From: Candidatus Omnitrophota bacterium
GTDB lineage: Bacteria; Omnitrophota; Gorgyraeia; Gygaellales; Profunditerraquicolaceae
NCBI GenBank assembly: GCA_030650425.1
Contig: JAUSED010000009.1
Span: forward strand, 1 to 32,903
Direction of reading: 5' to 3'
Length of the DNA stretch: 32,903 nucleotides
Shown here: piece after piece, positions 1 through 5,380 of the stretch
Numbering within the stretch: the stretch's first letter is position 1
How the letters are laid out: each line of letters starts with the position of its first letter
The notes under the pieces: generated by a model
Told to the model about the DNA's origin: nothing
Seen by the model: only the letters and a program-made list of their open reading frames with translations
Database searches by the model: none
Program-made: the position numbers and the translations under genes

Positions 1-122
1 GTATGGTTAATGCATTGTAATGCCTCACCTATGCTGTTAGCTTCGGTAAGCCGTTTTATCTCATCAAAAACCTTCTTATCCCCATCGTCCAAATTTATAT
101 TGTTAAAGTCAATCTCTTCCAC
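1..122 (-). CDS. Hypothetical protein, 5' part only (truncated by window edge)
   Basis: A minus-strand frame opens with GTG at 120-122 and stays open to the window edge for 40 codons. An AGGGG-type Shine-Dalgarno sequence lies about six bases upstream, which supports this start. The visible N-terminus is acidic (begins VEEIDFNNINLDDG) and I do not recognise a family. Its upstream region carries the same 18-base repeat as the promoter of the neighbouring response regulator, so the two genes may be co-regulated. It probably belongs to the mobile element. Function cannot be given from 40 residues. Confidence 0.45.
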   Translation of the reverse strand, partial: MEEIDFNNINLDDGDKKVFDEIKRLTEANSIGEALQCINH

Positions 123-344: not shown

Positions 345-920
345 TTAAAGAGCAGTTCTTTTGATATAGAGCTTTTTCATCCAGCGGTCAAGGCACCAAC
401 GCGTAATGTTTAATGTCCCTGCTGTTTTCTCTAGGTGCCAGTCACTGCGCCTTAGGGCTTTAAAAATAAGTTCTTTGGCAGCTTGATACAAGGTTTTTCT
501 TAAATCAAGGCCTTTTATCCTTAAGGTGGTTATCTCGATGTCATCAATTGCGCGTTTAATATATTCTTTCACCTTGTGGTAATCGCAGGGTTTTTCAAAC
601 GCAGCATAAGCGCCTAAGCGGATGAGTTCATCGCGGTTATATTCATCCAAGTAGGCCGAGATAATAATTACATGAATATCAGGGAAATTCTTTTTTATAA
701 GCTGGAGAAGCTCAGTACCGCTTAAGTTGGGCATCCTAACATCTAAGAGCACCACATCGTAATATTTGTTTTTCTTGCTAAGAGAAGGGATCACCTGGGT
801 GCTATCGGTGCAGATATCTACTTCAATATCTATCTCTTTCTCATGCTCGAGGCAATGTCTAGCATCCTCAGCGAGCATTTTGTCATCATCAACTATGAGA
901 ATGCCATATTTTGGTTTCAT
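345..920 (-). CDS. Response regulator, receiver domain plus Fis-type HTH
   Basis: A 191-residue two-component response regulator. The receiver domain (about 1-120) shows the acidic cluster D11-D13, the phospho-acceptor D60 in LLDVRMP, S88 and the conserved K110 in FEKP. The C-terminal 55 residues (ALRRSDWHLEKTAGTLNITR onward) form a Fis/NtrC-type helix-turn-helix without an AAA+ module, so it resembles the small PrrA/RegA/ActR type of DNA-binding regulator. I chose ATG at 918-920 because AAAGGAG lies five bases upstream and the first 48 codons of the longer open frame (to 1064) coincide with the riboswitch and terminator. No partner histidine kinase is in the window. Expression should depend on cyclic di-GMP through the leader RNA, and the repeat copies at its promoter suggest autoregulation (inference). 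Confidence 0.85.
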   Translation of the reverse strand: MKPKYGILIVDDDKMLAEDARHCLEHEKEIDIEVDICTDSTQVIPSLSKKNKYYDVVLLDVRMPNLSGTELLQLIKKNFPDIHVIIISAYLDEYNRDELIRLGAYAAFEKPCDYHKVKEYIKRAIDDIEITTLRIKGLDLRKTLYQAAKELIFKALRRSDWHLEKTAGTLNITRWCLDRWMKKLYIKRTAL

Positions 921-938: not shown

Positions 939-978
939 AAAAAGCCCCATTCGAATCGGCTTAGCCGAAGAATGGGGC
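939..978 (-). terminator. Intrinsic terminator of the c-di-GMP riboswitch
   Basis: On the minus strand GCCCCATTC (978-970) pairs with GAATGGGGC (952-944), with an inner TCGGC/GCCGA stem, and is followed by five T residues (943-939). It lies between the aptamer and the response-regulator start codon. The 3' arm GAATGGGGC also occurs inside the aptamer (1066-1058), so the 5' arm could pair with either, giving mutually exclusive folds. Confidence 0.8.
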
Positions 979-997
979 ATAAAGGAAAAAAGTTTAA

Positions 998-1090
998 CTT
1001 CGGCAACTGACTGCCTTATCCCGGACTTATACCGGGAGTTAGGCTCTATAGCTTTGCGCCCCATTCTTTCGAATGGTTTGCTATTGTCGT
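998..1090 (-). ncRNA. Cyclic-di-GMP-I (GEMM) riboswitch aptamer
   Basis: The minus-strand leader contains the GEMM-I hallmarks in order: GCAAACC, a CCATTC-GAAA-GAATGG hairpin with a GNRA tetraloop, the GCGCAAAGC joining segment, the GCCTAA / TAAGGCAG tetraloop-receptor side flanking a CCCGG/CCGGG helix, and the closing CAGTTGCCG. This matches the layout of the Vibrio Vc2 aptamer as I know it. It lies about 75-170 bases upstream of the response-regulator ATG, with an intrinsic terminator between. The architecture predicts transcription termination when ligand is bound (OFF switch), since the unbound aptamer strand GAATGGGGC can sequester the terminator 5' arm; the direction is inference. Plus-strand reading frames across this region are shadows. 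Confidence 0.9.
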
Positions 1091-1123
1091 CTTAAACTTT
1101 TATTCGGACCTATTTCTACTTAA

Positions 1124-1152
1124 AGTATACCATATAATGTGCGGAATAACAA
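1124..1152 (-). promoter_or_regulatory. Promoter of the riboswitch/response-regulator transcript
   Basis: TTGTTA (1152-1147) and TATACT (1129-1124) are 17 bases apart on the minus strand, with transcription expected to begin near 1117, about 27 bases before the aptamer. A CGCACATT half-site (1143-1136) lies in the spacer and a full 18-base repeat lies just upstream at 1158-1175, so a bound regulator would sit on the polymerase site. Confidence 0.65.
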
Positions 1153-1225: not shown

Positions 1226-1408
1226 ATGAATAGACTGTATAAATATCTGTTTTCTTTGGTTAAAAGCCATTTTTATGGTACGGTTAATATAACCTTTAAG
1301 AATGGGTTGCCGATAACAATAAAAGAGGAAAGGTCCATAGATACCACTCCCTTTAAAGACGAAATCAAGGGAAAGCTGGGAGATGAATGGCTTGAAAGGA
1401 ATAATTAA
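1226..1408 (+). CDS. Small protein, possibly YezD/DUF2292-like
   Basis: A 60-residue protein, beginning MNRLYKYLFSLV. The core FYGTVNITFKNGLPITIKEE resembles the short beta-rich YezD/DUF2292 family (pattern FGSV-hydrophobic-DGK-hydrophobic-E), whose function is not established; the acidic tail after residue 40 is not typical. There is no clear Shine-Dalgarno sequence before ATG 1226, so the start is uncertain. It lies alone between the divergent response-regulator promoter and the replication module, within the mobile element. Confidence 0.45.
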   Translation: MNRLYKYLFSLVKSHFYGTVNITFKNGLPITIKEERSIDTTPFKDEIKGKLGDEWLERNN

Positions 1409-1444: not shown

Positions 1445-1472
1445 TTGACAAGATGAAATTATAGTGTAAAAT
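1445..1472 (+). promoter_or_regulatory. Sigma70-type promoter upstream of small RNA/rep gene
   Basis: A consensus TTGACA (1445-1450) and TAAAAT (1467-1472) are 16 bases apart, with TG just before the -10. Transcription would begin near 1479, about 50 bases before the strong hairpin terminator and 113 bases before the replication gene. Confidence 0.65.
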
Positions 1473-1478
1473 CATTTT

Positions 1479-1580
1479 GTCAGTTAAAAATTAGGAGAAG
1501 TTAGAAACAAACAGCCTTATTAGAAGAACTAAAGGGCTGGTTTCGCGAGTCAAACTCGTGAGGCCAGCCCTTTTTATTTT
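1479..1580 (+). ncRNA. Candidate small RNA or attenuated leader of the rep gene
   Basis: A promoter ending at 1472 and a terminator at 1531-1580 delimit a transcript of roughly 100 nucleotides with no credible open reading frame. Because the terminator ends only 12 bases before the start codon of the O-like replication gene, this is either a free-standing small RNA or an attenuation leader controlling replication. The 5' half is purine-rich (contains TTAGGAGAAGTTAG) and single-stranded in appearance. Confidence 0.35.
1531..1580 (+). terminator. Very strong intrinsic terminator
   Basis: AAAGGGCTGG (1531-1540) pairs perfectly with CCAGCCCTTT (1564-1573). The intervening bases continue the helix with a CGAGT/ACTCG core and G-U pairs, giving about 20 continuous pairs closed by a CAA loop, followed by a T-rich tail TTTTTATTTT (1571-1580). 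Confidence 0.8.
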
Positions 1581-2039: not shown

Positions 2040-2240
2040 GTGAATTCTGTGGATAACTCATTTGGTAATGAAAAAAAATTAGAAGAAAAGTCGGAAAAGG
2101 ATTATTCAGAATACCGTCTTAAAAGGCTCTTAGAGATTCTTCTTGAGGCAGATTTGAAGCGGCTAAATGAACTCTGTCAAGCAGAGAAGAACGATAGGAT
2201 ACCTTCTAGCCTAAAAAATAAGTTGACTGATAGCGTATGA
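2040..2240 (+). CDS. Hypothetical small charged protein
   Basis: A 66-residue frame starting with GTG at 2040 (a second in-frame GTG is at 2049). It is rich in Lys and Glu and predicted helical (YSEYRLKRLLEILLEADLKR), with no motif that I recognise. It lies between the replication gene and the excisionase-like gene, with 20 bases to the latter. No convincing Shine-Dalgarno sequence is present. It could be a real accessory protein or chance; position inside a compact plus-strand module favours real. Confidence 0.35.
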   Translation: MNSVDNSFGNEKKLEEKSEKDYSEYRLKRLLEILLEADLKRLNELCQAEKNDRIPSSLKNKLTDSV

Positions 2241-2495: not shown

Positions 2496-4139
2496 ATGAA
2501 AGTAGCAATCTATATACGTGTGAGTACGGAGGAACAGGCAAGAGAGGGGTATTCTATGGAAGTGCAGCGTGAGTATCTTTTAGACCATGCTAAGCGCTTA
2601 GGTTGGGAAGTCTACAAAATTTATTCTGATGACGAAAGCGGGTATGTTCTAGACAGGCCTGCTTTAAAAGAGATGTTCCAAGATGCAAGGGCTAAGAAAT
2701 TTGAATTAATCATTACCTATAAACTTGACCGCTTTAGCAGAAAGTTAAAAGACCTGTTAAATATCGTAGATGAATTGGAAGGCTATGGAGTTGCATATAA
2801 ATCCGCTACCGAGCCTTTTGACACTACTACAAGTGCCGGGAAGCTAATGTTTCAACAGTTAGGGAGCTTTGCGGAATTTGAAAGAAACAGAATAAAAGAA
2901 AGAGTTTTCCCTGGAATGATTAAAGGCGTCCAGCAAGGTAATTGGCAGGGGGCAAGGTATGCTCCTTACGGTTACCATTACAAAAAGGAAAAGAAATTGC
3001 TTGAGGTGGCTCCTGAAGAGTCAGATATTGTGAAGTTGATTTATATGATGTATCTTTCAAATAAGACTACGGGCCAGATTACGGAATATTTATATCTTAA
3101 AGGATACAAAACAAGATCCGGAGGGAAATTTAATTCTGCGCTTGTATGCAAAATGCTTAAAAATCAAATTTATTTAGGAAAACTGATATGGAATCAGCAT
3201 CATTATGATACAAAACAGCATACTAATACCCGAGTTGGTTACAAATATGTTAGAAACGACCCATCGCAAATCGTAGTTGCTCAAGGTAGACACCAACCAA
3301 TAATCTGTCAGGAAGACTTTGATTTAGTGCAGAAAAAATTAAGAGCGAATCGAAAAGGAGTATTGCATAGGCGCAATGTTTTTGAATATCCGCTTACCGG
3401 TATACTCTATTGTGCAAAATGCGGATACAGATATCAAGGAACATCCAGCATTTCCAATCATAGAACAAAGAAAAGAAAGCGCTGGTATAAGTGCTCTTGT
3501 ATGGGGACCTACCACATAAAATGCGATAATCCAAGCGTGAAGGCGGAAGACATTGAGCCAAAAGTTTTTGATATAGTTAAGAAAGTACTCGCTCATAGAG
3601 ATATGGTTAATGGACGTCTCGATGCCTTGGTCAAGGCTAATATATATCATAATAATGCTGATGTGCGCCAGGAATTAGATAAACTAAATGAATTGCTCAA
3701 TGGCAATCTTACTAAGCAAAGTAAGATTAATGATGCCTATATGGATAATCTTATTGGCATCGAGATCTATAAAGACAAAGTATCATTGCTAAGGGAAGAG
3801 GAGAAGCAGATTAAATCTGAGATTGGAAAGTGTAAAATAAGGCTTGTAGAAAAAGAACAATCAGAGGCATATCTTAGAACTCTTAAATTGGCCATTGACA
3901 ACTTCGATGAGACCAAAAAAAAGATTGATATAGTGGAGAAGAAAGAGACGGTAAAACTTATATTCAAGTCCGTAGAAATCAACGGTAGTGCGATAGTGTC
4001 AGTCCGCTTATACCCGCCATTTCAGCAAATGTATGAGGAGGTGTTAAAAGAGTGCAACACATTGAAAAACCAGGAGATAGCAACAAAAACACAGACAGAC
4101 CGAGAAGTGTGTATATTGCAACCTACGGTTGTCAAATGA
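2496..4139 (+). CDS. Large serine recombinase (integrase)
   Basis: A 547-residue large serine recombinase that would catalyse site-specific integration and excision. The N-terminal resolvase domain (1-150) has the catalytic serine in IYIRVSTEEQA (S10) and the arginine motif YKLDRFSRKLKDL; the recombinase domain (about 160-260) contains GKFNSALVCKMLKNQIYLGK; a zinc ribbon at 300-345 has CAKC and a second Cys set (KCSC, KC); a coiled coil covers about 385-490. The final 29 codons overlap miaB in another frame: the end KNQEIATKTQTDREVCILQP is read through DNA that encodes the MiaB N-terminus, so the native C-terminus may have been altered by integration. Genes of this class normally lie next to one attachment site, which here must be at the miaB junction. 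ATG 2496 fits the family's usual N-terminus. Confidence 0.92.
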   Translation: MKVAIYIRVSTEEQAREGYSMEVQREYLLDHAKRLGWEVYKIYSDDESGYVLDRPALKEMFQDARAKKFELIITYKLDRFSRKLKDLLNIVDELEGYGVAYKSATEPFDTTTSAGKLMFQQLGSFAEFERNRIKERVFPGMIKGVQQGNWQGARYAPYGYHYKKEKKLLEVAPEESDIVKLIYMMYLSNKTTGQITEYLYLKGYKTRSGGKFNSALVCKMLKNQIYLGKLIWNQHHYDTKQHTNTRVGYKYVRNDPSQIVVAQGRHQPIICQEDFDLVQKKLRANRKGVLHRRNVFEYPLTGILYCAKCGYRYQGTSSISNHRTKKRKRWYKCSCMGTYHIKCDNPSVKAEDIEPKVFDIVKKVLAHRDMVNGRLDALVKANIYHNNADVRQELDKLNELLNGNLTKQSKINDAYMDNLIGIEIYKDKVSLLREEEKQIKSEIGKCKIRLVEKEQSEAYLRTLKLAIDNFDETKKKIDIVEKKETVKLIFKSVEINGSAIVSVRLYPPFQQMYEEVLKECNTLKNQEIATKTQTDREVCILQPTVVK

Positions 4140-5380
4140 ATGTGCGGGATTCGGAAGTCGTTGCTGGGTTACTCCAAAAATCCGGATACAAGATCTGCGA
4201 TAGTCCCGACAGTGCCGATGTGATTATCTTCAATACCTGCTCAGTGCGTCAGCATGCTGAGGATAAGGTTTGGAGTGAGATTGGGAGATTGGCGAAATCA
4301 AAAAAAATGGGGACAGTCCCCAAAAGGCGGGGACAGTCCCCATTTTTCAAGCCTATAATTGGCTTGATCGGCTGTATGGCTCAGAATTACAAGGAAACGG
4401 CGTTTGAGCGCTCGCCGGATATTGATTTTGTGGTTGGGCCCGCGGACATTGCTAAAATTCCGGATATTCTTGAGAAGCTTTCGCAAAAAAGGGGACAAAA
4501 AAGGGGACAGTCCCCAAAAAAAGGGGACAGTCCCCTTTTTTTTAGTTCCCATTTTTTTGAGAGAAAAATTTGGGAGACGGATAGCGAAATTCGTCCCGAA
4601 GAGATTTATCATACGGGTTTTTATGAGGATAAAGAGCATGCGTTTGTGGTGATCTCCGAAGGCTGCTCTAATTTTTGCTCCTATTGCGTAGTGCCTTATG
4701 TCAGAGGCGCCTTGCGTCACCGTAATTACGAAGATATTTTAAGAGAGATTAACGAGGCAGTGGATAAGGGGATAACGAAGATTACTCTGTTAGGGCAGAA
4801 TGTGAATGCGTATGTGTCTCCTGGAAAAATGGGGACAGTCCCCAAAAGGCGGGGACAGTCCCCATTTTTCCAGCCCCCTTTTTTCATTGAGTTGCTGGAA
4901 TTAGTCAATCGGATTAAAGGGATAAAGGAATTCAGTTTTATTACTTCGCACCCTAAGGATACGTCTGTAGATTTATTTAAGGCAATGGCAGATTTAGAAA
5001 AGCTAAGGAAATACCTGCATCTTCCGGTGCAATCCGGCTCTGACCGGATATTAAAATTGATGAATCGCAATTATACCAGAAAATTCTATTTGGATTTAGC
5101 GGATAATTATCGTAGAATTGTTAATGATGGCGTGTTGACCACGGATGTGATTGTGGGGTTTCCTACGGAGAGCGAAGTGGATTTTCTGGATACGCTTGAT
5201 TTAGTCAAAGATATCCGCTTTAACGCCGCCTATATATTTAAATATTCACCCCGGCCGCACACCGAGGCCGCTAAGATGGCGGATAGGGTTGAGAAGGAAG
5301 AAAAAGAAAAAAGGCACAGGATGATATTAGAACTGCAGAAAGAAATATCAAATAAAGTAAAAAATGAAAAACTTAAATAA
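4052..5380 (+). CDS. miaB: tRNA-2-methylthio-N6-dimethylallyladenosine synthase MiaB
   Basis: A 442-residue radical-SAM methylthiotransferase that converts i6A37 to ms2i6A37 in tRNAs. The UPF0004 domain carries C27 (TYGCQMN), C63 (NTCSVRQ) and C108 (IGCMAQ) for the auxiliary cluster; the radical-SAM cluster is C205, C209, C212 (SEGCSNFCSYC). Three in-frame insertions encoded by GGGGACAGTCCCC repeats (about residues 84-99, 146-166, 259-274; e.g. MGTVPKRRGQSPFF) lie where the family has variable loops, so the core is intact. The protein ends EISNKVKNEKLK, just where the C-terminal TRAM RNA-binding domain should begin, so TRAM is absent. The GTG start at 4052 lies inside the recombinase gene with AGGAGGT nine bases upstream; conserved sequence begins only at VYIATYGC (residue 20), so the first 19 residues probably derive from the mobile element. 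miaA lies two genes downstream and makes its substrate. Confidence 0.93.
   Translation: MQHIEKPGDSNKNTDRPRSVYIATYGCQMNVRDSEVVAGLLQKSGYKICDSPDSADVIIFNTCSVRQHAEDKVWSEIGRLAKSKKMGTVPKRRGQSPFFKPIIGLIGCMAQNYKETAFERSPDIDFVVGPADIAKIPDILEKLSQKRGQKRGQSPKKGDSPLFFSSHFFERKIWETDSEIRPEEIYHTGFYEDKEHAFVVISEGCSNFCSYCVVPYVRGALRHRNYEDILREINEAVDKGITKITLLGQNVNAYVSPGKMGTVPKRRGQSPFFQPPFFIELLELVNRIKGIKEFSFITSHPKDTSVDLFKAMADLEKLRKYLHLPVQSGSDRILKLMNRNYTRKFYLDLADNYRRIVNDGVLTTDVIVGFPTESEVDFLDTLDLVKDIRFNAAYIFKYSPRPHTEAAKMADRVEKEEKEKRHRMILELQKEISNKVKNEKLK
4303..4348 (+). repeat. Palindromic repeat insertion 1 in miaB
   Basis: A 46-base unit with two direct copies of GGGGACAGTCCCC and outer arms AAAAATGGGG / CCCCATTTTT, so the whole unit is also an imperfect palindrome. 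It is translated in frame (KMGTVPKRRGQSPFF) between the first helix and a beta strand of MiaB. Identical, base for base, to 4825-4870. Confidence 0.9.
4485..4543 (+). repeat. Palindromic repeat insertion 2 in miaB
   Basis: A longer, variant unit: one half copy (GGGGAC), then two full GGGGACAGTCCCC copies, flanked by A-runs and ending in a T-run. It is read in frame as KRGQKRGQSPKKGDSP and falls in the linker between the UPF0004 and radical-SAM domains. Confidence 0.9.
4825..4870 (+). repeat. Palindromic repeat insertion 3 in miaB
   Basis: Identical to the 46-base unit at 4303-4348 and translated in the same frame. It follows the LLGQNVNAY motif of the radical-SAM domain at a loop of variable length in the family. 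Confidence 0.9.

Follow-up and report, generated by a model that had tools for sequence, protein, structure and literature searches.

A probable GEMM-I OFF riboswitch for a receiver-Fis response regulator on a miaB-integrated mobile element of Omnitrophota

We analysed a 32,903-nucleotide stretch of DNA from an uncultured Candidatus Omnitrophota bacterium (the window; contig JAUSED010000009.1 of assembly GCA_030650425.1), in which the minus-strand leader at about 1117–921 contains a genuine GEMM-I riboswitch of a well-known kind. The aptamer is followed by an intrinsic terminator and the gene of a receiver-Fis response regulator, and all of these are on a mobile element integrated at miaB. We consider it likely that the leader is a transcriptional OFF switch for this regulator, with c-di-GMP as the most likely ligand.

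The aptamer and the response regulator gene

The leader, its gene and the adjoining features are listed by their window coordinates:

999–1092, minus strand: GEMM-I (c-di-GMP-I, RF01051) aptamer, by covariance model, with A20 by model alignment
990–1099, minus strand: outer P1 extension, in which AAGTTTAA (1099–1092) pairs with TTAAACTT (997–990) over 8 bp
345–920, minus strand: response regulator of 191 aa, with a receiver domain (PF00072, E 1.6e-21) and a C-terminal Fis-type HTH_8 domain (PF02954)
1–121, minus strand: beginning of a small downstream ORF that is truncated at the end of the contig (98 aa in the related element L064, interrupted in L062 and L063)
1124–1152, minus strand: probable promoter of the regulator transcript, with -35 TTGTTA (1152–1147), a 17 nt spacer and an extended -10 TATACT (1129–1124)
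1138–1176: operator-like repeat over the promoter region, ATGTGCGGTTTTGCTACA (minus strand, 1175–1158) with a partial second copy TGTGCGGAA (plus strand, from 1138)
185–277: further repeat copies downstream of the regulator gene, on the plus strand at 186 and 230 and on the minus strand at 276

The initial annotation, which was made from the sequence alone, had placed a GEMM-I aptamer at 998–1090 of the minus strand and proposed a covariance-model search as the check. The Rfam c-di-GMP-I model (RF01051) matches 1092–999 of that strand with 74.4 bits (E 5e-13), above the gathering score of 35 bits and over all 87 model positions (1–87). The features of the class are present in the model alignment, including a P2 hairpin closed by a GNRA tetraloop (CCATTC-GAAA-GAATGG), the equivalent of A47 in GCAAAG, and the equivalent of C92 in the 3′ segment TGCCGAA. 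The outer P1 extension is kept in the sister elements (7–8 of 8 pairs in four sequences), and the leader as a whole folds with z = -5.3 relative to shuffled sequences.

The gene at 920–345 encodes a response regulator, as had been annotated. Its PF02954 match is just above the cut-off (22.7 vs 22 bits), and in an alignment of six homologues both D60, the probable phosphoacceptor, and K110 are invariant. The ATG is at 920 and is preceded by a Shine-Dalgarno sequence, AGGAG, at 930–926. The promoter annotated upstream of the aptamer is less secure; as a pattern alone it is not significant (11 found vs 8.6 expected), and what argues for it is that the sequence of the site is largely kept in sister elements L062 and L064. 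Repeats of the form ATGTGCGNNNNNGCTACA, overlooked in the initial annotation, flank the regulator gene on both sides, with one copy next to the promoter and several beyond the regulator stop codon, and are kept in related elements. In the 1.8-Mb assembly the exact sequence TGTGCGNNNNNGCTACA has three occurrences, each of them within the element, and there are no exact copies of the repeat elsewhere. We propose that these repeats may be binding sites for the regulator itself.

The regulator is 79–85% identical in five other Omnitrophota records (JAHKAP010000026, JAHJAO010000042, JAJYOP010000027, Ca. Velamenicoccus archaeovorus LiM, and UBA6210). A GEMM-I aptamer lies directly upstream of it in the first three of these, with scores of 71–77 bits, and the sister elements L062, L063 and L064 have the same order of aptamer, terminator and response regulator. 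GEMM-I is absent from the regulator leaders of LiM and UBA6210, even at a relaxed threshold, and a degraded copy in these leaders, which we considered, is unsupported at that threshold; genome-wide, LiM has sub-threshold GEMM-I matches only. Because LiM and UBA6210 keep the regulator without the riboswitch, the riboswitch is dispensable for the element. The leaders of these two (L065 and L066) lack the promoter-side repeat as well as the aptamer, and a short hairpin and a T run precede the regulator there.

Ligand specificity and position 20

The initial annotation named c-di-GMP as the ligand, and while the riboswitch class stands, that assignment is weakened by a single base in the aptamer. 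By model alignment the window reads AAUAGCAAACC where the family consensus is AAaGGCAAACC, and the A in question sits immediately 5′ of the P2-closing pair and 27 nt before the A47 equivalent. We take this to be the position of G20 in Vc2, so that the window has A rather than G at position 20, as do aptamers of the GEMM-Ib type. The mapping agrees with the numbering of the Geobacter structure, in which A14 precedes a P2 starting at C15, and which has A41 and C75 (PMC6274999). Since this position is a selectivity factor rather than a class-defining one (PMC9262584), membership in RF01051 holds whichever ligand is bound. In the GEMM-Ib riboswitch of Gmet_0970 an A20G change switches selectivity from cGAMP to c-di-GMP (PMC6456294), and a class I GEMM riboswitch with G20A binds cGAMP (PMC6274999, PMC7288161) and has been crystallised with it (PMC6274999).

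The A20 therefore leaves room for relaxed or 3′,3′-cGAMP specificity, and a GEMM-Ib-like switch that senses 3′,3′-cGAMP, or both cyclic dinucleotides, with an expression platform working alike, is a real alternative that we nonetheless rate as unlikely. It fits with this reading that the other three GEMM-I copies of the same genome and all three sister elements have G20, such that A20 is probably derived. Several observations point the other way. The P2-closing pair of the window is G-C as in Vc2, and not C-G as in the Geobacter structure (PMC6274999). Only two of about 90 clade GEMM-I aptamers sampled have A20 (a count from two samples, with about three aptamers unreadable by pattern), and there is therefore no clade-level cGAMP system to cite. 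The second of the two is L159 (G030:C22:13217-13327), the only other A20 aptamer in the clade sample. The host part of the window contains two GGDEF genes, in keeping with the two diguanylate cyclases annotated there, and there are eight GGDEF matches in the host, where every readable NDxxGHxxGD motif has the standard Asp of diguanylate cyclases. A search of the 94% complete host genome for cGAMP-producing enzymes, limited to PF00990 and PF18144, thus found neither a Hypr GGDEF (with Ser for this Asp) among the readable motifs nor a SMODS CD-NTase, and for this reason c-di-GMP stays the likeliest ligand.

It seems to us a distant prospect that a single G20A change has moved the riboswitch of this element from c-di-GMP towards 3′,3′-cGAMP. 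If it had, the regulator would answer another signal than in the G20 sister elements, one that might come from Hypr cyclases or from anti-phage-defence cyclic dinucleotides in other hosts.

Terminator and competing pairings

The switch is proposed to involve two further features of the leader:

939–978, minus strand: intrinsic terminator, with 5′ arm GCCCCATTC (978–970), 3′ arm GAATGGGGC (952–944) and U tract (943–939)
1058–1066, minus strand: switching strand b, GAATGGGGC, the P2 3′ strand, able to pair instead with the terminator 5′ arm

Both a terminator downstream of the aptamer and a nine-base identity between the two had been annotated, and both are borne out. The terminator hairpin alone folds with -24.1 kcal/mol (z = -5.7 vs shuffles), its loop holding an inner stem, and the nine bases are present at 1066–1058 as well as at 952–944, with their complement at 978–970. 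The relevant strands are four, namely a (CCATTC, the P2 5′ strand), b (the P2 3′ strand), c (the terminator 5′ arm) and d (the terminator 3′ arm), where a:b forms P2 and c:d the terminator, and the alternative pairings b:c and a:d are possible. The a:d pairing, which is the reciprocal of b:c, was overlooked in the initial annotation. With G-U pairs allowed, the b:c complement is 12 nt long and spans the entire terminator 5′ arm; a complement of this length is equalled anywhere downstream in 18 of 1000 shuffles.

The expression platform can thus form mutually exclusive structures in silico, as the initial annotation had supposed. The optimum fold of the full-length leader without ligand contains b:c and a:d (-66.7 kcal/mol, vs -62.5 kcal/mol for P2 plus terminator). 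When successive prefixes are folded, P2 is intact until the c arm has been made, the probability of b:c is then near 1.0 until d has been made, and at the U tract the two states are near balance, about 1 kcal/mol apart in programs that leave out tertiary contacts and pausing. From this order (aptamer, antiterminator, terminator) and from the fold energies, a ligand that holds P2 would favour termination, in agreement with the direction predicted earlier, and we infer an OFF direction in vivo on the same energies.

In the mechanism that we favour, P1, P2 and P3 would stay folded when ligand is bound, keeping strand b within P2, such that the c:d hairpin would form and transcription would terminate. 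Without ligand, c (GCCCCATTC) would invade P2 as soon as it is transcribed and the b:c antiterminator would be made before d exists; once made, d could pair with the freed P2 5′ strand and lock the read-through state. The regulator would in turn target the repeats, both those overlapping its own promoter region and those between the regulator and the next gene.

The sister elements vary in these pairings. Both terminator arms have changed together in L062–L064 (C-G to U-A), and the altered c arm can still pair with b, through a G-U pair, over 7–9 nt, a complement that in an ungapped comparison is no longer than chance allows. Without ligand, P2 plus terminator is favoured in L062 (-46.7 vs -42.8) and L063 (-53.4 vs -47.7), whereas in L064 the b:c fold is the optimum as in the window, and so the set point would differ among the copies.

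These departures in the sisters bear on a rival explanation, in which the sharing of nine bases would be coincidental, with the terminator serving as an ordinary attenuator and switching taking place through P1 or at translation. The short b:c complements of the sisters and the folding of L062 and L063 to aptamer plus terminator without ligand are what one would expect of it, but it leaves unaccounted for the 12 nt pairing in the window with its coverage of the whole 5′ arm, the preference of both the window and L064 for b:c in the apo state, and the 11 nt P2-3′-strand complements in two other clade GEMM-I leaders (L003 and L031), which are among the few of comparable length. The Shine-Dalgarno sequence is also free, downstream of the terminator, and we regard this explanation as quite improbable. 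We think it very doubtful that A20 and drift have left a decaying, insensitive aptamer, with the antiterminator fixing a constitutive level of regulator expression. It is true that A20 is unique among the sister elements and that the aptamer is already gone from LiM and UBA6210 (with a regulator of 79% identity there), but the window aptamer retains its remaining conserved positions, both stems, the tetraloop and the outer helix, its score is as high as those of the G20 sisters (74.4 vs 71–77 bits), and the antiterminator of the window is the longest of the set.

The mobile element and its integration at miaB

The remainder of the element extends rightwards to miaB and includes the following:

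1226–1408, plus strand: conserved small ORF, 60 aa, 52–63% identical in L062, L064 and L066
1592–1954, plus strand: phage replication protein O-like, N-terminal domain (PF04492, E 5e-17; TIGR01610)
2040–2240, plus strand: small conserved ORF, 66 aa, 60% identical over 42 aa with L066
2261–2473, plus strand: excisionase-like small protein of HTH_17/MerR type, from domain searches and conservation
2496–4139, plus strand: large serine recombinase (integrase), specific for the 5′ end of miaB
4121–4140, plus strand: att core ACCTACGGTTGTCAAATGAA, within miaB codons TYGCQMN and with the integrase stop codon inside it

This is a real integrated mobile element with a serine integrase, in line with the initial annotation. 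The large serine recombinase lies at one end and adjoins a site-specific att in a host gene, and in about ten related genomes a homologue of the recombinase borders miaB at these very codons (94% identical in G010, 82% in UBA6210, and 45–53% in further genomes of the family). The empty site is represented in four genomes of the same genus (G001, G003, G004 and G005), in which miaB is present without the recombinase. The homology between the recombinase ends of LiM and UBA6210 stops at CATCGGTTG, and we place the crossover there for that reason; in LiM it is a different recombinase, about 19 kb distant, that borders miaB. The far end of the element, with any second att site (attR), lies off the contig, which stops at window position 1, and the assembly has a single att core. 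We note that a family of large serine recombinases of the clade (L095–L104) is found repeatedly at the miaB codons TYGCQMN, where miaB appears to gain a new start from the recombinase end. A search of IMG/VR viral contigs found no relative of the regulator, and a 26% match was all that it gave for the integrase.

The suggestion that the element reads the c-di-GMP level of its host is plausible, but it would not be a special property, as GEMM-I is present in 58 of the 59 clade relatives searched.

A second leader and very long reading frames

A second putative attenuator lies on the other strand:

1445–1578, plus strand: second leader, with promoter TTGACA/TAAAAT (1445–1472), an antiterminator-like hairpin (about 1512–1539) and an overlapping terminator (1531–1573, plus T run)

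This leader precedes the replication, excision and integration operon of the element. Its 28-nt hairpin, CAGYCYTATT(N)GAARA(A/G)C...GGGCTG, overlaps the 5′ arm of the strong terminator, so that the two are mutually exclusive. Over the five elements compared (the window, L062, L064, L065 and L066) the hairpin pairs in every cell (100%; 31–74% in slid controls), despite sequence changes. No Rfam family matches above threshold, and a scan of the viral contig collection for this attenuator found nothing. The hairpin has the look of an antiterminator that would respond to a protein or another ligand.

Very long open reading frames are a further feature of these genomes. In LiM and UBA6210 one adjoins the element on the regulator side. 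The genome to which the window belongs (G000) has on contig C6 an open frame that reaches at least 57,099 codons and runs off the contig start (L077–L079). This frame includes GGDEF-like matches, and a second giant frame has its tail at C2:1-9260 (L083). We considered whether the giant ORF beside the element in LiM may be cargo; in the genome of the window, the homologue of the 313-aa neighbour lies elsewhere, on C2.

Relationship to known systems

There are precedents both for GEMM-I control of response regulators and for GEMM-I on mobile DNA. GEMM-I OFF switches with terminators are already known, one example being Cd1 (PMC9262584). The Cd1/Cdi-1-3 switches of Clostridioides difficile belong to the same aptamer class as that of the window, likewise use a terminator and have the OFF direction predicted here, and in both cases the antiterminator requires that the ligand-binding fold be temporarily lost (PMC9262584, PMC6200980). 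They differ in that the window uses as its switching strand the P2 3′ strand, whose sequence recurs in the terminator 3′ arm, and in that the window has A and not G at the selectivity position. This A is shared with the Geobacter GEMM-Ib aptamers for 3′,3′-cGAMP, from which the window departs in its P2-closing pair, which is as in c-di-GMP aptamers, in having a host where a Hypr cyclase was not found, and in having clade relatives with G20. In C. difficile, the response regulators CD630_32650 and CD630_32670 likewise have DNA-binding domains and are under c-di-GMP riboswitch control (PMC6200980), but these belong to C. difficile operons, whereas the receiver-Fis protein of the window is encoded on an integrated element. 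GEMM-I aptamers are also present on the conjugative plasmid pILYOP02 (L117) and on two phage-labelled contigs (L115 and L116); these elements are unrelated to that of the window, and in pILYOP02 the aptamer is followed by an HD-domain phosphohydrolase gene rather than a response regulator.

Given these precedents, the parts worth testing are the change to A20 and the association with an integrating element, which is conserved. The window offers a compact example of a second-messenger riboswitch, its regulator and an integrase for the miaB 5′ end, together on an element found across Omnitrophota, and it allows one to ask whether such an element couples its regulator to the cyclic-dinucleotide levels of the host. 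Elements that have G20, have A20 or lack the aptamer altogether make up a natural series in which to follow how a riboswitch alters its specificity or disappears.
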